DNA of 64,000 bases from Clostridium sp. DL-VIII (lineage in GTDB: Bacteria; Bacillota; Clostridia; Clostridiales; Clostridiaceae). Of the stretch, positions 28,074 through 38,077 are shown in pieces. Location of the stretch: the NCBI RefSeq assembly GCF_000230835.1, contig NZ_CM001240.1, positions 2,116,501-2,180,500 of the forward strand. The letters are read 5' to 3'. Under the pieces are notes generated by a model that was not told where the DNA came from, made no database searches, and was given only the letters and a program-made list of their open reading frames with translations. The position numbers and the translations under genes are program-made. Each line of letters opens with the position of its first letter. The first letter of the stretch is position 1.

Positions 28074-28214
28074 AGTATAGTAATATTTAATTAGAGAATA
28101 TTTCATTTGCATAGAGAAATAGAATAAATTTTTGATAATGTAAATGTTCATAATATAATTTAATAGGATAGAAATGAATCAAATAAGCTTAAACAACGAT
28201 AAGGAGTGATAAAC

Positions 28215-29576
28215 ATGAAGATTTTATATTACGATTGTTTTTGTGGCATAAGTGGTGATATGAATTTAGCGGCATTAATAGATTTAGGTGTACCTAAGGA
28301 ATATTTAGTTAAGGAACTTTCAAAACTTAATTTAAATTCTGAATATGAAATAAGAGTAGAAAAAGCTGCAAAACTTGGAATAACAGGAACTAGAGTGGAT
28401 GTTATATTAGAAGATGAACTTAAAGATGAAGCACATGTTTCAGAGCAAGCTTTACATGAACATTCGCATGAGCATTATCATCACAATGAAGATGACCACC
28501 ATCATGATGATAGCAATCATGCTCACGAACATGATTATACTCATGAACATGATCATAGTCATGGACATACGCATAATCATGAGGAGCATGCTCATAATCA
28601 CGAGCATCACCATAGAAACTTAAAGGACATAGAAGGTATAATAAATTCAAGTGATTTAAGTAATAGAGTTAAGGAACTTAGTTTAAAAATGTTTATGAAG
28701 GTTGCAGAAGCAGAAGCTAAAGTTCATGGAAAAGCTTTATATGAAGTGCATTTTCATGAAGTAGGAGCTATTGACTCAATTGTAGATATGGTGGGTGCAG
28801 CTATTTGTTTAGATTATTTAAATGTTGATAAAATTATTGCATCTCCAGTTCAAGTTGGAGGTGGTTTCGTTAAATGTGCTCATGGTCTTATGCCAGTGCC
28901 AGCCCCTGCAACAACAGAAATATTGAAGAATATTCCTATAAATACTGGAATAGTGCAATTTGAAACAACTACTCCTACTGGGGCAGCAATACTTTCAGCA
29001 AATGTCGAGGAATTTACTTCAAAAGTTGATTTCTCAATTACAAAGATTGCATATGGAATAGGACATAGAGATTTAGAAATTCCAAATGTTTTAAGAATAT
29101 ATCTAGGAGATGCGGAAAGTCTTGAGAAAGTAGAAAAGCAATATATCTTGGAAACTAACATAGATGATATGAATCCAGAGATTTATGGATACATAGAAGA
29201 AAAGCTTTTTGAGGCGGGAGCCTTAGATGTATTTAAAACATCTATATCTATGAAAAAGGGAAGACCGGGAGTAAAATTAAGCGTATTAGTTGATGAACAG
29301 AGTGAAAAAGCTGTGTTAGACATTATATTTGAGGAAACAACTTCAATAGGTATAAGAAAATATGAGGTTGAAAAGATAATGCTAGACCGAGAATTTTCAA
29401 AAGTAAAAACTGAGTATGGAGATATTACAATTAAAAAGTCTTATTATAAAGGAAAATTGGTGAAGTATAAACCGGAATATGAGGAATGCAAGACTATAGC
29501 TAAAGAAAAAAATGTATCTATTGATAAGGTATATAAAGCAGTATATCAAGTGAGAATTGATTCAAATGAAGTTTGA
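28215..29576 (+). CDS. larC: LarC, nickel chelatase for the nickel-pincer nucleotide cofactor
   Basis: A protein of 453 aa from the ATG at 28215, which follows AAGGAG; an in-frame ATG nine bases earlier overlaps that site. It starts 'MKILYYDCFCGISGDM', the LarC signature, and both the LarC1 and LarC2 parts are in one uninterrupted frame. LarC inserts Ni into the dithiolated pyridinium mononucleotide using CTP. Residues of about 80-133 are a very His-rich stretch of HxH and HDH repeats, longer than a simple linker and likely a nickel store. It is the first gene of larC-larE-larB. The cofactor serves lactate racemase-like (LarA) enzymes. Confidence 0.95.
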   Translation: MKILYYDCFCGISGDMNLAALIDLGVPKEYLVKELSKLNLNSEYEIRVEKAAKLGITGTRVDVILEDELKDEAHVSEQALHEHSHEHYHHNEDDHHHDDSNHAHEHDYTHEHDHSHGHTHNHEEHAHNHEHHHRNLKDIEGIINSSDLSNRVKELSLKMFMKVAEAEAKVHGKALYEVHFHEVGAIDSIVDMVGAAICLDYLNVDKIIASPVQVGGGFVKCAHGLMPVPAPATTEILKNIPINTGIVQFETTTPTGAAILSANVEEFTSKVDFSITKIAYGIGHRDLEIPNVLRIYLGDAESLEKVEKQYILETNIDDMNPEIYGYIEEKLFEAGALDVFKTSISMKKGRPGVKLSVLVDEQSEKAVLDIIFEETTSIGIRKYEVEKIMLDREFSKVKTEYGDITIKKSYYKGKLVKYKPEYEECKTIAKEKNVSIDKVYKAVYQVRIDSNEV

Positions 29577-29600
29577 TTCTCATCTGAATCTTAGTGGAAC

Positions 29601-29697
29601 TTATACCCTTAAGGGGCATAATGTCCAGGAGCGTGCAGCCGTTACCAGCAACTTAAAGAAGCTTAAGGGTTACGGATGCTAGCTATCGGATAAACAA
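29601..29697 (+). ncRNA. Candidate structured RNA (cis-regulatory) between larC and larE
   Basis: A GC-richer block in the 159-bp gap. A long stem with symmetrical internal loops forms: TCC/GGA, GC/GC, GCA/TGC, CCGT/ACGG and ACC/GGT (5' arm 29624-29646, 3' arm 29668-29690), capped by CTTAA-AGAAGC-TTAAG. A separate segment ACCCTTAAG (29605-29613) is exactly complementary to CTTAAGGGT (29662-29670), which would break the cap and the top of the stem. Such exclusive pairings are typical of riboswitches or pseudoknots. I do not recognise the FMN, TPP, cobalamin, SAM, c-di-GMP or other common consensus. Confidence 0.55.
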
Positions 29698-29735
29698 GAT
29701 TTAAATTAAATTTGTGGGCGAGAGGTGTAAAATAA

Positions 29736-30551
29736 ATGATAAACAATGAAAAGTACATCGAATTAAAAAAGTATTTACAAGGTCTAGGAAAAGTGGTTTT
29801 AGCATTTTCAGGAGGAGTAGATAGTACTTTCTTACTTAAAGCAGCTAAAGAAGCACTTGGAGATAAAGTAAAAGCTGTAACAATTCTTTCTCCGTATATT
29901 CCAAAGTGGGAAATAGCAGAAGCAGAGGAATTAGTGAAGGAACTTGGAGTACAGCATGAGATTATAAAGGCTCCAATTATTGATTCGATCAGGTTTAATC
30001 CAGAAGATAGATGCTATCTTTGTAAGACAGCAGTATTTAATATGATATTAGATGTAGCTAAAAAGCAAGGTTATGACTGTGTAATTGATGGAACAAATTT
30101 TGATGATATAAGTGATTATAGACCAGGACTTAAAGCTTTAAAGGAATTAGACGTGAAAAGTCCTCTTTTAGAATGTAAATTAACAAAGGCAGAAATAAGA
30201 GCTTTTTCAAAAGAACTAGGACTTAATACTTGGGATAAGCCACCATATGCATGTCTTTTAACAAGGATACCTTATGGAAATGAATTAAGAGAAGAAGATT
30301 TTGAGAAAATTGAAAATGCAGAAAAATATATGATGAGCATAGGTTTTAGAGCTATTAGAGTCAGATGTCACGGGGATTTAGCAAGAATTGAAGTGGCTAG
30401 ATCTGATAGAAGTAAATTATTTGATGAAGAGCTTTTAGATAATATTGCAAAGAATATAAAAGAGTGCGGATTTAAATATGTCTCGTTAGATCTTCAAGGC
30501 TATAGAGTAGGAAGCTTTAACGAAACTATAAATAAAATTTCTAATAATTAA
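29736..30551 (+). CDS. larE: LarE, sulfur transferase of nickel-pincer cofactor synthesis
   Basis: A protein of 271 aa of the PP-loop ATPase family, with 'AFSGGVDSTFLLKAA' (residues 23-37) as AMP-forming motif. LarE adenylates the pyridinium carboxylate and adds sulfur to make the thiocarboxylates. Three cysteines stand out: C93 and C96 in 'DRCYLCK' and C173 in 'PPYACLLTRIPYG'. In Lactiplantibacillus plantarum only the last is present and is sacrificed. In three-Cys LarE (Thermotoga maritima type) they bind a [4Fe-4S] cluster that carries the sulfur, so a catalytic rather than suicidal enzyme is expected. A structured leader precedes it and larB follows. Confidence 0.95.
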   Translation: MINNEKYIELKKYLQGLGKVVLAFSGGVDSTFLLKAAKEALGDKVKAVTILSPYIPKWEIAEAEELVKELGVQHEIIKAPIIDSIRFNPEDRCYLCKTAVFNMILDVAKKQGYDCVIDGTNFDDISDYRPGLKALKELDVKSPLLECKLTKAEIRAFSKELGLNTWDKPPYACLLTRIPYGNELREEDFEKIENAEKYMMSIGFRAIRVRCHGDLARIEVARSDRSKLFDEELLDNIAKNIKECGFKYVSLDLQGYRVGSFNETINKISNN

Positions 30552-30623
30552 AGATAGTATGTTGATTAAAGGCAGTAATAAACTATTAAAATGTAATAGA
30601 AAATTAAGGAGGAAAAAGTCTTA

Positions 30624-31370
30624 ATGGATAAAGAAGAAATCAGAGATCTATTAGAAGGTGTTAAAAATAATAAAGTTAAGATAGACAAAGCTCTTGAGCA
30701 GTTAGAAGATTTACCTTTTAAAGATTTGGGATTTGCTAAAATAGATAATCATAGAGAAATAAGAGTTGGCTATCCAGAAGTTATATATTGTGCAGGAAAA
30801 ACTGTGGAACAAGTTAAAGAAATTGTTAAATTCATGCTTACAAAAAATAATAACATATTAGGTACAAGGGCTACTGAGGAAATGTTTTATGCAGTAAAGG
30901 AAATATGTGAGGATGCAGAATATAATAAGCTTGGACGAACAATAACAATAAATAAAAAAAAACAGCCTCTTACAGAAAGTTATATAGCTATAGTTGCAGC
31001 TGGAACTTCTGATTTACCAGTAGTAGAAGAAGCATATGAAACTGCTAAAATCTTTGGAAATAAAGCAATTAAAATAACAGATGTAGGTGTTGCAGGTATA
31101 CACAGGCTCTTTTCAAGATTAGATGTTATCAGAGGGGCAAAAGTTGTTATAGTAATTGCCGGGATGGAAGGAGCTTTGGCAAGTGTTGTAGGTGGTCTTG
31201 TGGACAAACCTATAATAGCAGTTCCAACAAGTGTTGGTTATGGAGCAAATCTTGGTGGAATTTCAGCATTATTATCAATGCTAAATAGCTGTGCTAGTGG
31301 AGTAAGCGTAGTAAATATAGATAATGGATTTGGTGCAGCCTATAATGCTAGTATAATTAATAAATTATAG
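30624..31370 (+). CDS. larB: LarB, pyridinium-3,5-biscarboxylate mononucleotide synthase
   Basis: A protein of 248 aa. LarB carboxylates nicotinic acid adenine dinucleotide with CO2 and releases AMP, the first step of the cofactor. The C-terminal half is PurE-like: 'AAGTSDLPVVEEAYETA', 'GMEGALASVVGGLVDKPIIA' and 'PTSVGYGANLGGISALLSML'. The N-terminal part with 'FAKIDNHREIRVGYPEVIYC' is the family-specific cap. AGGAGG precedes the ATG at good spacing. It is 72 bp after larE and the operon ends at a strong terminator. No larA, larD or nickel transporter gene lies nearby. Confidence 0.95.
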   Translation: MDKEEIRDLLEGVKNNKVKIDKALEQLEDLPFKDLGFAKIDNHREIRVGYPEVIYCAGKTVEQVKEIVKFMLTKNNNILGTRATEEMFYAVKEICEDAEYNKLGRTITINKKKQPLTESYIAIVAAGTSDLPVVEEAYETAKIFGNKAIKITDVGVAGIHRLFSRLDVIRGAKVVIVIAGMEGALASVVGGLVDKPIIAVPTSVGYGANLGGISALLSMLNSCASGVSVVNIDNGFGAAYNASIINKL

Positions 31371-31418: not shown

Positions 31419-31465
31419 AGACTGTAATAAGAATGAAAATAAAATCTTATTACAGTCTTTATTTT
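31419..31465. terminator. Terminator between larB and the convergent ATPase gene
   Basis: AGACTGTAATAAGA and its exact complement form a 14-bp stem around 12 nt, followed by TTATTTTA. It lies between convergent genes and may serve both strands. Confidence 0.85.
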
Positions 31466-31481
31466 ATGTATATTGAATTTT

Positions 31482-33596
31482 TTAGCGACTTATATAATAA
31501 ATCCTTTGATTAAGAAGTAATACTAATAGTGAATTTAAAGTATTTAGGGATTTTGCTGCAAATATATCTAAACCACCTGCAAAAGCAATAAAACCAAGAG
31601 TAATATTATATATCTTTGAGAAAAGTATAGTACGATTAATAGCTATATAGGATGCTTTGGATAGAAATATTAAATCAGCAAGTTTGGTCAAATTATCATC
31701 ATATATTAGGCAGTCTGAGTGAAGTTTTATCATATCGTAGGAGCTGTTTGCAAAACTTACGCTAACATCTGCAGCTTTCATAGCCAATGCATCATTAATT
31801 CCATCACCAATCATCATAACAGTATTTTCAGTACTTTCATTTTTAACTATATTAGCTTTTTCACAGTAATTCATATCGGCATATATTTGTGATATTCCAA
31901 GTTCAAGACCTACTTTTTGTGCTTTTGAATAGGAGTCTCCAGTTAGTATAGCGATATTATCTATTCCATCATATCGTAGTCTGTTAATTAGCTCCCTAGA
32001 ATCCTTCTTTATAATATCATCAATAATCAACATGCCTGTAAGAGTTTTGTTTACAGTTATAAAAATAGGGGGAAGCGATTTTTCTTGATATTCCATGTAA
32101 TTTTTTATACCTTGTGATATATCTATTTGATTATCCACCATTAGTTTCATATTACCAATTAGTATTTCTTTATTATCATAATTTGCTTTTATTCCTTCAG
32201 ATGGTAGAAGTACAGAATTATTAAGCTTACTAATTTCAAAATTACTGCAAGCATCTTGTAATGTTATAGAGATTGGATGAAAATGCTCATATTCACAGGC
32301 AGTGCATATCTTAAGAAGTTCTTCTTTAGAATATTTATTATCAAATGATATTATTGATATAATATTCATTTTTCCATAGGTTAAAGTTCCTGTTTTATCG
32401 AAGATAACTTTATCTATATTCAATATGTTCTGGAATACATTTGGATTTCTTAAGTAAATATCATTCTTGTTTAGCAATGAGATGTAGTTCTTAATTCCAG
32501 AATTTAAAGCTACTGATGTGGCTTTAGGGCTTAATACTAAAAATACAGAGAATGCATTTAAAATATTATTGGTGAATATATAACTCAAACCAGCAGCCCA
32601 TATTGCAAAATTAGTAACTTTGCTTTGAAATTTTTTACTTCTATTGTTAAGATAAAATTTTTCCGGTGAAATATCTTGTTTTTCTGTGAAGTTTGGTAAT
32701 TTAAGGATTCTAATTGTTAGTTCACCAGAAATTATTGCAGTTCCCTCATGAATTTTAGCTCCTTTACTTATACGTGAAATTATAGGCTGACCTGAGTGAT
32801 ATAAAGTATTTATGACTGCATTTCCATCTTCAATAATACCTTCGACAGGTATCACTTCACCAGTATTACCATAAATAAAATCTCCAATTTTCAAGGTATC
32901 TATTGAAACTAAAATTTTATCTCCATTAAGCGATTTAATCCAAGCCATTTTATAATTAATATTATATGAATCTATCAGTGCTTTTCTACTTTCAACTTCG
33001 GCAGAAAATTTAATGTAGTCATTTAAGGCTTTCAGCATAAGAACTAAAATACCTTTAGAGCTTTCTCTCATAATAGTAAAAGATAAAGCAGTAAGCTCTA
33101 GTAAAATATCTTCATTTGCTGGCAGCGGTTTTGCAAATTTTTTATATAGCTTTTTAATTAATGGATATCCACTAACAATGGTCACTAAAGAAGCAACCTT
33201 GAGTACAGTTAAATTTCTGCTTATTGGAAACTTACCATAAGTAGAGTTTTTTATTTTAAGAAAAATATAAAATAAGCTCCAAAATAAAAATTTTCTTTTG
33301 GATCTTTTTTTATTGTCTATTGCATGAAAATATTCTTGGAAATTATTTAATTTGGTATTATCTGTAATAATGCTCGTAGAGAGAGCATTTTCTACATCTT
33401 CTTTAAGTATATGTAAGTTTGTTTTTTTAATATCATACATAATTAGAATTGAGCCAGTACGTTTGGTGATTTTAGTAGATTTTACCCCATATAGGCTCAA
33501 TATGTATTTTTCTATGTGTTCTGAAAGCTCTGTATTATAATATATATTTAACGACTTAAATCGTACTCTTCCTGGTAAAGCACTTAAGCATTCCAA
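31482..33596 (-). CDS. P1B-like P-type ATPase with atypical motifs
   Basis: A protein of 704 aa. The N-terminal HMA-like domain (1-70) has 'PGRVRF' and 'TGSILIMYD' but no CxxC. Later come the phosphorylation site 'VIFDKTGTLT' (Asp400), the P1B His-Pro motif 'HFHPIS' (His440), 'LTGD' (552) and 'GDGINDALAM' (597), so phosphorylation and nucleotide binding look intact. Two key sites are odd. The membrane CPC motif reads 'LSPKATS' (356-358), and the actuator TGE reads 'SGQ' (268-270), lacking the glutamate that drives dephosphorylation. Transport may therefore be slow, altered or dependent on a partner. It ends an operon-like minus-strand row of five genes. Confidence 0.85.
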   Translation of the reverse strand: MECLSALPGRVRFKSLNIYYNTELSEHIEKYILSLYGVKSTKITKRTGSILIMYDIKKTNLHILKEDVENALSTSIITDNTKLNNFQEYFHAIDNKKRSKRKFLFWSLFYIFLKIKNSTYGKFPISRNLTVLKVASLVTIVSGYPLIKKLYKKFAKPLPANEDILLELTALSFTIMRESSKGILVLMLKALNDYIKFSAEVESRKALIDSYNINYKMAWIKSLNGDKILVSIDTLKIGDFIYGNTGEVIPVEGIIEDGNAVINTLYHSGQPIISRISKGAKIHEGTAIISGELTIRILKLPNFTEKQDISPEKFYLNNRSKKFQSKVTNFAIWAAGLSYIFTNNILNAFSVFLVLSPKATSVALNSGIKNYISLLNKNDIYLRNPNVFQNILNIDKVIFDKTGTLTYGKMNIISIISFDNKYSKEELLKICTACEYEHFHPISITLQDACSNFEISKLNNSVLLPSEGIKANYDNKEILIGNMKLMVDNQIDISQGIKNYMEYQEKSLPPIFITVNKTLTGMLIIDDIIKKDSRELINRLRYDGIDNIAILTGDSYSKAQKVGLELGISQIYADMNYCEKANIVKNESTENTVMMIGDGINDALAMKAADVSVSFANSSYDMIKLHSDCLIYDDNLTKLADLIFLSKASYIAINRTILFSKIYNITLGFIAFAGGLDIFAAKSLNTLNSLLVLLLNQRIYYISR

Positions 33597-33633
33597 AATA
33601 AATCACCTCATCAATATTAGAATTAAATGAATA

Positions 33634-33852
33634 TCATTTTTTTAATTCATTTAATCTGCTTTCAAGCAGAACTGCTTGTTCCTTTAGTTCTTTAAAACTA
33701 TTAATTATATCATCATCTTTTATAGTATTTCTAGAAAAGCTATTATTATTTGAAGAATAATTCAATGTATTTTTTTTTATTGAACTATATAAGGAATTAC
33801 CTAAAAAGCCTAAAGTAAATCCCAAAAGCAATTTCTTATTATTTAATATCAT
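33634..33852 (-). CDS. Small single-pass membrane protein next to the P1B-like ATPase
   Basis: A protein of 72 aa. Residues 7-24 ('KLLLGFTLGFLGNSLYSS') form one membrane segment with small residues, then a Ser/Asn-rich linker and a C-terminal helix with heptad character ('ELKEQAVLLESRLNELKK'). I do not recognise a named family. The plan resembles other small one-helix partners of P-type ATPases, such as mycobacterial PacL, but without their C-terminal metal motif. GGAGG precedes the ATG. It lies 37 bp upstream of the ATPase gene, so it is probably a subunit or assembly partner. Confidence 0.65.
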   Translation of the reverse strand: MILNNKKLLLGFTLGFLGNSLYSSIKKNTLNYSSNNNSFSRNTIKDDDIINSFKELKEQAVLLESRLNELKK

Positions 33853-33928
33853 TTAAATACCTCCAGTTATTACATAATGCTTTTTCTAATTATGTCCGTT
33901 GAAATACAATTTATACAATAGAGTGTTA

Positions 33929-34177
33929 TTAAAATTTTTTAAACATTGCATATTTTACTATGGCTTTGCCTACATGTTCAGTATTAGTATTTTCTGTTTC
34001 CTTAAAAAAGTAATTACTTATTCTCGAAGATGTAGTCATAAAAGCATTTAGTATTTCCTTTTCAAGTGACGGATCTTCCTTTATTGCTTTTAAGCTGAGT
34101 GTTATAATTTCGTTGACTCTTTTTTCTATAGATGATAAATCCATTTCAATTGTTTCTAAAGTTTTTTTGCTTTCCAT
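33929..34177 (-). CDS. Small soluble helical protein in the ATPase cluster
   Basis: A protein of 82 aa with no recognised family. Predicted to be almost wholly helical: an amphipathic N-terminal half ('IEMDLSSIEKRVNEIITLSL'), then 'NAFMTTSSRISNYFFKETEN', then a basic, hydrophobic end ('KAIVKYAMFKKF') that could touch the membrane. No cysteines, so it is unlikely to bind soft metals. AAGGAG precedes the ATG. It is 13 bp from the pseudo-ATPase gene, so the genes are co-transcribed. Confidence 0.6.
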   Translation of the reverse strand: MESKKTLETIEMDLSSIEKRVNEIITLSLKAIKEDPSLEKEILNAFMTTSSRISNYFFKETENTNTEHVGKAIVKYAMFKKF

Positions 34178-34190
34178 AAATAGTAACTCC

Positions 34191-35327
34191 TTAATATTGT
34201 TTTTTAGTGTGCATTAATGTTTTATGTCTAATATAAAATAAATTTCCAAATGTATTTAGAAAATATAAGAGAATAGTTCCACTTAAATTTATATGTTTGA
34301 TTAAAGCAAAAAAGATGCCCAATATATTTATGCTTATAGCAACAGCTTGAGATCTTACTAAGTATTCTTGGCTGATTCTACAGTCTTGAATTATCCATGG
34401 AATCTTAGATAATTCGTGGCAAGTTATGTTAATATCTTTATTGGAAGATTTGAGGCCATGAAGTATACCTAATATAAGGCTTCTATCTATATCATTAATG
34501 TTTGGGAAAACGTTTTCTTGAGTAATTATTAAATTATTGTGCTTAGCATCTTCTTTAATATTATAAAGTCCAAGTGTTTTATTTGCATATAATATTAATT
34601 TCTTATTTTGATCATCTTCAAGAATAGCTATATTATTAATTCCAATATATCTCAGGTTTTTTATTAAACTTCTAGCTTCTATGTTAATTGGATCAGTTAC
34701 TTTTTTTGCATATATAAAACCGTCTATTTCAGGATGGTCCATTAATTTTGGATTTTTTAAGTAACAATCATTAAATACTATTTGGGGATGTATTAAAATA
34801 TAATTGATGTTTCTAATACGCTCTATAGAATTAGCTTCTTTAATATGAATATCATTTAAAGCAGCATTTTCTAATATGTACTTAAGTGAAACATATGAAT
34901 TAATATATAATATTGCAGGAATCCCAAAAATAAGAGAACAAAGAGTATAAATAGGTTCAGCCGTAAAAAGTAAAAAAGAAGCTGCAGATATTGATATGGC
35001 TAAAAGCCTGTGAGATAGAGATTTTGTACCTGAAAATAATTCCTTGGAAAAAATATTTAATTTATTTTCAGTATAAGTTATACTATTTAAATTATTTATT
35101 TTAATATGTGATGAAGATATGACATTGCATATCAAATCTTCATCAATACAATATGAATCATAAGTTAACAATATATTTCCGGTTTTTATATTAATATGAA
35201 TTGAATCTATACTAGGAATTGATTTTAGAAGATTTTTTATATTTATAACTGCACTTAAATTTCCTTTAAGCCCCTCTATATATAAACGTATTCTTCCTGG
35301 AATTGACGATAACTTTTTTATATTCAT
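34191..35327 (-). CDS. Catalytically dead P-type ATPase relative (pseudo-ATPase)
   Basis: A protein of 378 aa that aligns along its length with parts of the ATPase at 31482. It has the HMA-like start ('IPGRIRLYIEG', 'TGNILLTYD'), two central membrane segments (about 107-148) and two at the end. 'NDIHIKEANSIERIRNINYI' matches 'NDIYLRNPNVFQNILNIDKV'. The phosphorylated Asp of DKTGT is replaced by His180 in 'ILIHPQIVF'. 'RSLIKNLRYIGINNIAILED' matches 'RELINRLRYDGIDNIAILTG', with TGD lost. GDGxND is absent. The nucleotide-binding insert is missing and the actuator and first membrane helices are deleted. The frame is clean, so this is a conserved non-enzymatic protein rather than a decayed gene, possibly a partner of the active ATPase. 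Confidence 0.75.
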   Translation of the reverse strand: MNIKKLSSIPGRIRLYIEGLKGNLSAVINIKNLLKSIPSIDSIHINIKTGNILLTYDSYCIDEDLICNVISSSHIKINNLNSITYTENKLNIFSKELFSGTKSLSHRLLAISISAASFLLFTAEPIYTLCSLIFGIPAILYINSYVSLKYILENAALNDIHIKEANSIERIRNINYILIHPQIVFNDCYLKNPKLMDHPEIDGFIYAKKVTDPINIEARSLIKNLRYIGINNIAILEDDQNKKLILYANKTLGLYNIKEDAKHNNLIITQENVFPNINDIDRSLILGILHGLKSSNKDINITCHELSKIPWIIQDCRISQEYLVRSQAVAISINILGIFFALIKHINLSGTILLYFLNTFGNLFYIRHKTLMHTKKQY

Positions 35328-35335
35328 ATTTGGTT

Positions 35336-35770
35336 TTAACCTTCAGCATTAGGCATCATGGTTGATCTTCTTTTTTTATTTTCATATTGAGCTTCTGCAA
35401 CTATATCCTCTAAGCCCTCACGTGCATGAGCAACCTTTTCTGAAGCGTAATCAGTCATGGAGAAAACTGCGCGCATAGTACCAACAGTAGCTTTTCTCAT
35501 TGGAGAGGCAACCATGTTCATAAAAGAAAAATTATTTTTTCTGGTATTACTGAACATTTTAGTTGTTTCTTTTTCTTCAATCACAGAATCGATTTTTTCC
35601 ATAAGTTCCTTTAGGTTATTGTTTATAACTGTAAAATTATTTTCCATTTGCTTAATATTATTTTCTTTTTGAGCATTTTCCTTTTCTATGCTATCCAATT
35701 TTTGAAGCAATGAGTCGTATTTTCCTTTAAGTCCATTGATCTCTTGGTTTAATTCTTCTATTTCTTCCAT
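35336..35770 (-). CDS. Coiled-coil protein of the ATPase cluster
   Basis: A protein of 144 aa. Residues 1-70 form a strong coiled coil ('EEIEELNQEINGLKGKYDSL' and onward). The second half has a moderately hydrophobic helix ('SFMNMVASPMRKATVGTMRA') followed by a charged tail. No family recognised. The ATG at 35770 follows GGAGG at good spacing. It is first in the minus-strand row and 8 bp from the pseudo-ATPase gene. A scaffold or membrane-associated assembly role is possible; the amphipathic segment could sit on the membrane. Confidence 0.65.
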   Translation of the reverse strand: MEEIEELNQEINGLKGKYDSLLQKLDSIEKENAQKENNIKQMENNFTVINNNLKELMEKIDSVIEEKETTKMFSNTRKNNFSFMNMVASPMRKATVGTMRAVFSMTDYASEKVAHAREGLEDIVAEAQYENKKRRSTMMPNAEG

Positions 35771-35870: not shown

Positions 35871-35920
35871 TATAAATTTTGCAATATTTTTACATACTGA
35901 CAATAAGAGGAGGGTATAAC

Positions 35921-37174
35921 ATGAAAATAAAAACTAATCAAAAGGCTTCAATATCATTAGTTATTATGTTTGCAGGTTTTCTCCTTACGCTATTTTCATC
36001 AGATAATATAATTATAATGATGATACTTAGAAGTGGATTTGAAGCAGGCCTAGTAGGTGGGATTGCAGATTGGTTTGCAGTAACAGCACTTTTTCGCTAT
36101 CCTTTTGGTATCCAAATTCCTCATACTGCATTACTGCCAAAGAATCGTCAAAAAATAACTACAGCCTTGGTTTCAATTGTAGAGAACAATTTATTGAATA
36201 AGGCCAGCATTATTAATAAGGTTCAGGAGTTGAATGTTGTAAGAAGGGTTTTAAATATATGTAAAAATAATATGTATTCTAAAGAAGTAAAATCAAAGAT
36301 TAACTACATTATAAAAAGCACCATAGATTATATTTCTATAGATAAACTTTCATTATACTTACTCGATTTAATAGGAGGTTATCTAAATAAGTTAGACTCT
36401 AGAAAACTTCTGGAGACAGGAGTTAAAATATTTTTACAGAATAATTATGAAGAAAAAATTCTAGATGCTTTGATTAAGAAATGCACGGAATTAGTACAGA
36501 AAGAGGAAATAAAAAAGGAAGCAGGGGATATAGTATTTAGTACTGTAAAAAAATTAGGATCAAGTAAGATAAAACAATACATGCTAAATACAGTAATAGA
36601 TATTGTAGGAAAGGATAAAATAGGCAGCATAGTTCAAAATTTAATTATTTCTGCGCTTAATGACTTAAAGAAGTCAGATAGTTTAAACAGAAAAATGATT
36701 CTTGAACTAATGGAGAACAATATAAAGAGTATTAGCAGCGATGAAATAATTATACAAAAGATAGATGAGTTTAAAAGCAGCGTGCCTGATAATGTTAAGT
36801 TAAATGATTTTATAGTAGAAAGCTTAAATGGATTAAAAAGTAGAATTTTAATATATATTAATGATGATAATTATATAGAAAAAATAATGCTGCCATCAAT
36901 AGATAAGGTAATAGAAAAAGCTTTATCAAATGTTGAATTAATAGATAAATTAGAGGAGTATATACAGGGGCAGGCATCAGAATATATTAATAATAATCAC
37001 GAGAAAATAGGAAAGCTTGTAAAAGAAAACATTGAAAAGATAGACACTAAGACATTAATAGAATTAATAGAATATAAGGTTGGAGATGACTTGCAGTGGA
37101 TAAGAGTAAATGGAGCAATTTGCGGATTTTTTATTGGTTTGATATTAGGAATAATCAGAGTAGTATTTAGGTAA
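35921..37174 (+). CDS. DUF445-family membrane protein
   Basis: A protein of 417 aa from the ATG at 35921, which follows GAGGAGGG. Two N-terminal membrane segments (about 8-45) lead into 'GGIADWFAVTALFRYPFGIQ' and 'IPHTALLPKNRQKI', the family signature. A long helical middle follows, and 'WIRVNGAICGFFIGLILGII' is the C-terminal membrane segment. DUF445 proteins are widespread membrane proteins without an agreed function. It is divergent from the ATPase row with a possible shared operator, so it may belong to the same system. Confidence 0.88.
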   Translation: MKIKTNQKASISLVIMFAGFLLTLFSSDNIIIMMILRSGFEAGLVGGIADWFAVTALFRYPFGIQIPHTALLPKNRQKITTALVSIVENNLLNKASIINKVQELNVVRRVLNICKNNMYSKEVKSKINYIIKSTIDYISIDKLSLYLLDLIGGYLNKLDSRKLLETGVKIFLQNNYEEKILDALIKKCTELVQKEEIKKEAGDIVFSTVKKLGSSKIKQYMLNTVIDIVGKDKIGSIVQNLIISALNDLKKSDSLNRKMILELMENNIKSISSDEIIIQKIDEFKSSVPDNVKLNDFIVESLNGLKSRILIYINDDNYIEKIMLPSIDKVIEKALSNVELIDKLEEYIQGQASEYINNNHEKIGKLVKENIEKIDTKTLIELIEYKVGDDLQWIRVNGAICGFFIGLILGIIRVVFR

Positions 37175-37223: not shown

Positions 37224-37844
37224 CTAGTATTCTGAATTAATTAAAAAGAATATTAATTGAAGAAGACCATTTCGTAGATCACATTTTAGATTTAGTAAAA
37301 AACCTTTTAATTGTTCAAGTATAATATCACTATGTTTTTGTTTTTGATTTTTTAAACTTATGCTGCCAAGAATTTTTTTGGGAAAATTCGAACCATTAAA
37401 AGCATAGTTAATTATTTTGCCCTGGCAGCATACCTCAAACATCTTTGATGAAGATTTATCTAAAACCCACTCACAAAAGCTCAATACTTTTTCTGTTCTT
37501 CTAAATTCGTTAATATTATTTTCAACGCAATGAATATGTTGTTCCTTTTCATTATTCTTATTAAAATATATAGCACATTTAGAAAAACTACAATTTATTA
37601 TTTTACTTATTTTATATATCACAGTTTCAATAAAAGCTTTTATCTCATGCTCAGAAAGATTAAGACATTTAATAACATCATTAAAGTTTTTTACATAACC
37701 CCTTATATATGACTCATAAATCAAATAAATAGATTTTAGACGTATTTCAAAAAATGTATCAAGTTCTTGCTCTAATACTTCTATACATTTTTCTTCGATT
37801 AAATGCATATGCATACCCATAACATATTCTTCTTTAGCTACCAT
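37224..37844 (-). CDS. Unrecognised protein with Met/His-rich start
   Basis: A protein of 206 aa with no family I recognise. The ATG at 37844 is preceded by GAGGCAGGTG. The N-terminus reads 'YVMGMHMHLIEEKC', a possible metal-binding patch. The rest is mainly helical ('LSEHEIKAFIETVIYKISKI'), has eight further cysteines spread through it, and ends in a hydrophobic segment ('NGLLQLIFFLINSEY'). It could be a regulator or a metal-responsive protein. It lies between the DUF445 gene (convergent) and the large ATPase (divergent). No terminator of its own was seen. Confidence 0.55.
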   Translation of the reverse strand: MVAKEEYVMGMHMHLIEEKCIEVLEQELDTFFEIRLKSIYLIYESYIRGYVKNFNDVIKCLNLSEHEIKAFIETVIYKISKIINCSFSKCAIYFNKNNEKEQHIHCVENNINEFRRTEKVLSFCEWVLDKSSSKMFEVCCQGKIINYAFNGSNFPKKILGSISLKNQKQKHSDIILEQLKGFLLNLKCDLRNGLLQLIFFLINSEY

Positions 37845-38077
37845 AGCCAACACCTGCCTCTATTTAATTTTGATTACAAATAAGATAATAAACGACCAAT
37901 GTAAAATTTATTTAAATTTAAAGTTAATTTAATATTAAATGTTCATGTAAATATTGGCATTTATAAGAATACAAAGATTTTCATGAATAAATATTTTTTT
38001 GCTGGAAAAAATTTATTTATCTTTCAACAAATGAGGAACATACAATTAACGTAAAATAAAAATAGTAGGAGGAAAAG

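Follow-up and report, generated by a model that had tools for sequence, protein, structure and literature searches.

The window analysed here is a stretch of 64,000 nucleotides from Clostridium sp. DL-VIII, whose genome comprises 6.48 Mb on one contig; the window's proteins are 97% identical to proteins of Clostridium sp. BL-8. Positions 31482-35770 hold five minus-strand genes in the order cc, pseudo-ATPase, hel82, tm1 and 704-aa ATPase, each separated from the next by 8 to 76 nt. Past this run lie a DUF445 gene, the gene for a 209-aa protein (p209) and a 991-aa P2-type ATPase that starts with an HMA_2 domain. The genome has only three HMA_2 matches, and all are proteins of this locus. The features are:

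35336..35770, minus strand: cc, a 144-aa coiled-coil protein whose C-terminal part is weakly PacL-like (DUF1490/DUF6110/DUF5132)
34191..35327, minus strand: pseudo-P-type ATPase, 378 aa, with HMA_2 (about 2-72), two helix pairs and a P-domain core (about 156-321)
34788..34790, minus strand: His180 codon, the phosphorylated-Asp position of the pseudo-ATPase
33929..34177, minus strand: hel82, an 82-aa helical protein
33634..33852, minus strand: tm1, a 72-aa protein with a single short hydrophobic N-terminal segment, which lies below the cut-off of a simple hydropathy scan
31482..33596, minus strand: P1B6-derived ATPase of the xGQ clade, 704 aa, with HMA_2, A, P and N domains
32787..32795, minus strand: Ser268-Gly269-Gln270, replacing the A-domain TGE motif of the 704-aa ATPase
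32385..32399, minus strand: intact DKTGT phosphorylation motif (Asp400) of the 704-aa ATPase
35879-37174, divergent: DUF445 gene
37224..37853, minus strand: p209, a 209-aa protein with a fold of no recognised kind; its true start is possibly the fourth codon
38078..41053, plus strand: P2-type cation ATPase, 991 aa, with N-terminal HMA_2 and intact catalytic motifs

Three plus-strand genes (28206-31370) run convergent to the cluster. We take them to be similar to larC, larE and larB of nickel-pincer cofactor synthesis, and a reading by eye of the ORF lists for related loci showed no such genes. A perfect 14-bp inverted repeat with a 12-nt loop (31419-31458) lies between the ATPase gene and these convergent genes and is possibly a two-way terminator. 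Of 18 loci, 5 have the DUF445 gene next to the cluster, and these all belong to the window's genus. In the 10 loci compared, the P2-type ATPase keeps TGES or TGEA plus DKTGT; its M6 motif in these loci is WIDVVSES and relatives, presumably a departure from the usual Ca-ATPase pattern.

An earlier note on this DNA, made from the letters alone, had proposed that the 378-aa protein is related to P-type ATPases and catalytically dead, and both points stand. The P-domain and its flanking helix pairs are present in the sequence and in the structural model: the protein retains HMA_2, two helix pairs (M3-M4 and M5-M6) and, in collapsed form, the P-domain, while the A-domain and N-domain are missing. 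DKTGT, TGD and GDGxND are gone in all ten loci aligned. As the note had stated, the phosphorylated Asp is replaced by His180, and this His is conserved at the Asp site in 24 of 26 close relatives. Among the profiles, the xGQ ATPase scores best (3.3e-13), followed by the CPC-type (8.3e-12) and SC-type (6.4e-10) sets; the preference for the xGQ ATPase over the other P1B sets is modest. From sequence and model together, the 378-aa protein is recognisable as a degenerate paralogue of its operon's own P-type ATPase. A second kind of dead P-type ATPase, judged by its motifs, is protein P0165, a full-length 738-aa HMA_2 ATPase relative in which ARTGV, TAADS and GDDVSD replace DKTGT, TGE and GDGxND.

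The pairing of an active with an inactive ATPase, as the earlier note had it, is upheld for the inactive member; the partner is not plainly active, with Gln in place of the TGE Glu and the P1B/P1B6 metal motifs gone. The 704-aa ATPase has DKTGT, TGD and GDGxND and lacks the A-domain glutamate. The xGQ clade comprises 93 sequences among the 120 matches listed of 1923. Among these listed matches, the TGE Glu is changed to Gln in 88 of 91 scorable xGQ-clade rows (the remainder being one R, one H and one E) and is retained in 26 of 27 other relatives, and DKTGT occurs in 92 of the 93 clade rows, the odd row being a fragment. The metal-site motifs of the membrane helices differ in the same listed matches. 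SC in TM4, which we take to be a P1B6 label, occurs in 19 of 27 other relatives; neither SC nor CPC is found in any of the 93 clade rows, and the first Cys of CPx is kept in 11 of them. HN in TM6, a P1B6 feature according to PMC9374683, is found in 0 of 90 scorable clade rows vs 22 of 27 other relatives. In KdpB, the E161Q change prevents the aspartyl phosphate from being hydrolysed and leaves no ATPase activity (PMC7535926). Because of the Gln at TGE and this effect of a Glu-to-Gln change in KdpB, it would be unsafe to call the 704-aa ATPase active, although it should be phosphorylatable. The 18 xGQ rows group as a single clade on the ATPase tree (support 100/100). The outgroup ATPases in similar operons keep TGE, together with CPC and HN in G173 and with CPG in G376, which suggests that the xGQ state arose within a PacL-like operon.

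The cluster recurs in other genomes, as the earlier note had expected. The xGQ-clade profile found matches in 15 of the 194 order-level genomes and in 7 of the 391 class-level genomes; the two samples overlap, and one match in each is of TGE type (G173 and G376, respectively). At xGQ loci with enough sequence, cc is present in 18 of 18, hel82 in 16 of 18 and tm1 in 13 of 18, and a P2-type ATPase is found at at least 12 of 18, with two more at cut edges. Neither of the two contrary outcomes set out beforehand occurred, since a P-type ATPase profile match was obtained and the genes co-occur elsewhere. The ATPase and the pseudo-ATPase are found together in other genomes, yet the pairing is not obligate: in the 17 scorable loci the pseudo-ATPase is intact in 11, decayed in one and absent from five. 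The intact copies, which span four genera, are those of the window, G042, G027, G074, G112, G115, G124, G127, G132, G153 and G508. The G104 copy lacks its start and its C-terminal part and carries a frameshift and an internal stop; the gene of the sister G027 is intact. Checks of the whole genomes of G044, G134, G144, G176 and G217 found no pseudo-ATPase; in G176 its place is occupied by a 381-aa transposon-type ORF (TnpB-like by eye). In G076 it is fragmented along with everything else.

The earlier note had taken the five genes of 31482-35770 as the partner set. This grouping has to be revised, as the closest co-occurring companion of the pseudo-ATPase is p209, which lies outside that run and is newly noticed here. 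Scored by locus, p209 accompanies the intact pseudo-ATPase in 11 of 11 genomes (broken by stops in G027) and is present in 0 of 6 without an intact copy (Fisher 8e-5 on 17 loci, or 6e-4 without the broken G027 copy, uncorrected for relatedness). Searches of whole genomes found the p209 family in 12 of 21 tested, namely the 11 with an intact pseudo-ATPase and the fragmented G076, and did not find it in the five pseudo-less genomes or in G104, G310, G173 and G376. Among the 194 genomes of the order it occurs in the same 8 that have an intact pseudo-ATPase and in G076. On the ATPase tree, the joint state of the two genes requires five changes; well supported branches force at least three of these, and as few as five are reached in 18 of 500 shuffles. 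Both genes are present on the deep branches G508 and G074, so the pair probably dates back to the ancestor, with several joint losses since.

Is the pseudo-ATPase a functionless duplicate in slow decay? Its decay in G104, its absence from five other loci, catalytic residues that vary freely and a dN/dS about twice that of the ATPase would fit such a history. That history is nevertheless highly improbable, given a dN/dS of 0.26-0.40, intact copies in 11 loci of four genera, a single open frame in each locus despite deep divergence (22-57% identity) and joint retention and loss with p209. Selection on the frame, claimed earlier from its intactness, is thus borne out. Judged from sequence, the pseudo-P-type ATPase is real and selected, and it belongs to a conserved cluster that resembles the P1B6/PacL systems and whose ATPase clade is unusual.

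The tighter co-occurrence with p209 than with the ATPase, together with the conserved His at the Asp site, raises the question of whether the pseudo-ATPase functions independently of the ATPases, for example as a sensor or ligand-binding membrane protein with p209. We consider this unlikely. The pseudo-ATPase is always located in the ATPase operon, its 8 intact copies among the 194 order genomes all fall within the 14 genomes that carry the xGQ ATPase, and the HMA_2 domain and both helix pairs are common to the two proteins.

The earlier note had also linked the cluster to ferrosomes (Fez). An anaerobic clostridium that encodes small membrane proteins together with an HMA_2-bearing, P1B6-derived ATPase would suit a ferrosome reading, in which the cluster makes iron organelles of that type and the 704-aa protein takes the part of FezB. 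We found no support for this reading and consider it improbable; a distant relation to Fez may still exist. TGE and the P1B6 signatures of TM4 and TM6 are lost from the 704-aa ATPase, in a comparison that takes FezB by description only. No Fur-box-like site beyond chance was found in the 16 upstream regions: across these 16 loci the best match has 5 of 19 mismatches, which 3-100% of shuffles reach. Moreover, G101 and G053 have a separate HMA_2/SC-type ATPase cluster, and in G132 and G153 an HMA_2/P1B6-type cluster of like layout is present in addition to the one described here. This second cluster, with HMA_2 proteins of 214 aa (listed for G132 only) and 130 aa and a 736-aa ATPase, resembles the SC-type clusters of G101 and G053. 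In the window's genome, seven of the ten other P-type ATPases were inspected, and these have CPC or P2-type TM4 motifs. A sister cluster on L033 (5669-10083) and L036 (1290-5657) contains two HMA_2 proteins and an SC-type ATPase, along with a 286-aa HMA_2 protein and a small one-helix protein, and is a candidate for Fez comparison.

The coiled-coil protein directs attention to another kind of system. PacL1 and its relatives belong to the DUF1490 and DUF6110 families; their genes accompany those of P1B6-type pumps, and the proteins gather such pumps into membrane foci (PMC9374683 and PMC13043812). A DUF6110 gene is the usual companion of a P1B6 pump gene (PMC9374683). The C-terminal segments of cc match DUF1490, DUF6110 or DUF5132 in 9 of 10 loci at E values of 0.0055-0.13, all below the Pfam cut-off, and in some segments unrelated families reach similar scores. 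The G376 homologue matches DUF1490 at 3.8e-4, still below the cut-off. A metal-binding motif like that of the PacL1 C-terminus was not seen in cc (0 Cys, 1 His) or tm1 (none).

The reading that we favour, at about an even chance of being right, is that the 378-aa protein works alongside p209 as a non-catalytic regulatory subunit of a membrane ATPase assembly resembling the PacL/P1B6 platforms. The HMA_2 domains together with cc, hel82 and tm1 would hold this assembly together, as PacL proteins gather CtpC-type pumps, and would bring together the xGQ ATPase, the P2-type ATPase and, as an optional regulatory module, the pseudo-ATPase with p209. The xGQ ATPase would take phosphate on Asp400 and lose it slowly, so that the phosphoenzyme may persist or be subject to regulation. 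The 378-aa protein, with p209, would bind and set the state of the xGQ ATPase or of the neighbouring P2-type ATPase. Against a subunit role stands the dispensability of the pseudo-ATPase in 6 of 17 loci. A bolder proposal, which we regard as possible though doubtful, is that the xGQ clade is a phosphorylation switch whose dephosphorylation Glu is permanently lost, that the inactive half-ATPase and p209 supply reset or coupling, and that this signalling pair in the membrane steers the adjoining P2-type pump.

Pseudoenzymes are well known among kinases. The earlier remark that pseudo-P-type ATPases are hardly described as partners is in keeping with our literature search, which found no inactive P-type ATPase kept in that role; in the accessible part of a 2023 superfamily review, neither "pseudo-ATPase" nor "inactive" appears in the partner sense. 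A natural Gln at TGE in a conserved clade would provide ready-made stable phosphoenzymes and raises the question of roles of P-type ATPases besides pumping. A dead pump copy that travels with p209 hints at an undescribed control of ion pumps, and their joint retention and loss makes the partner question directly testable.

In comparison with known systems, the cluster shares with Fez clusters a P1B6-type ATPase ancestry and small membrane partners; it differs in the loss of the P1B6 signatures from the 704-aa ATPase. No Fur box stood out beyond chance in the 16 upstream regions, and no cytochrome-like protein corresponding to FezC was noticed in passing. With the CtpC-PacL1 platforms of PacL/DUF6110 systems the cluster has in common an operon that joins small proteins to a P1B-derived ATPase bearing HMA_2. 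The outgroup ATPases G173 (CPC and HN) and G376 (TGE, CPG) sit in the same operon type, and cc draws weak, below-cut-off DUF1490/DUF6110 matches. Unlike PacL/P1B6 systems, the cluster has xGQ for TGE, changed TM4 and TM6 motifs, a dead ATPase paralogue and p209; a P2-type ATPase often adjoins, and the metal-binding tail was not seen in cc or tm1. KdpFABC also places a P-type ATPase inside a hetero-oligomer, as presumed for the cluster. In Kdp, however, KdpA and KdpC are not ATPase relatives, TGES is kept and regulation is by serine phosphorylation. The natural xGQ state resembles the engineered KdpB E161Q (PMC7535926).
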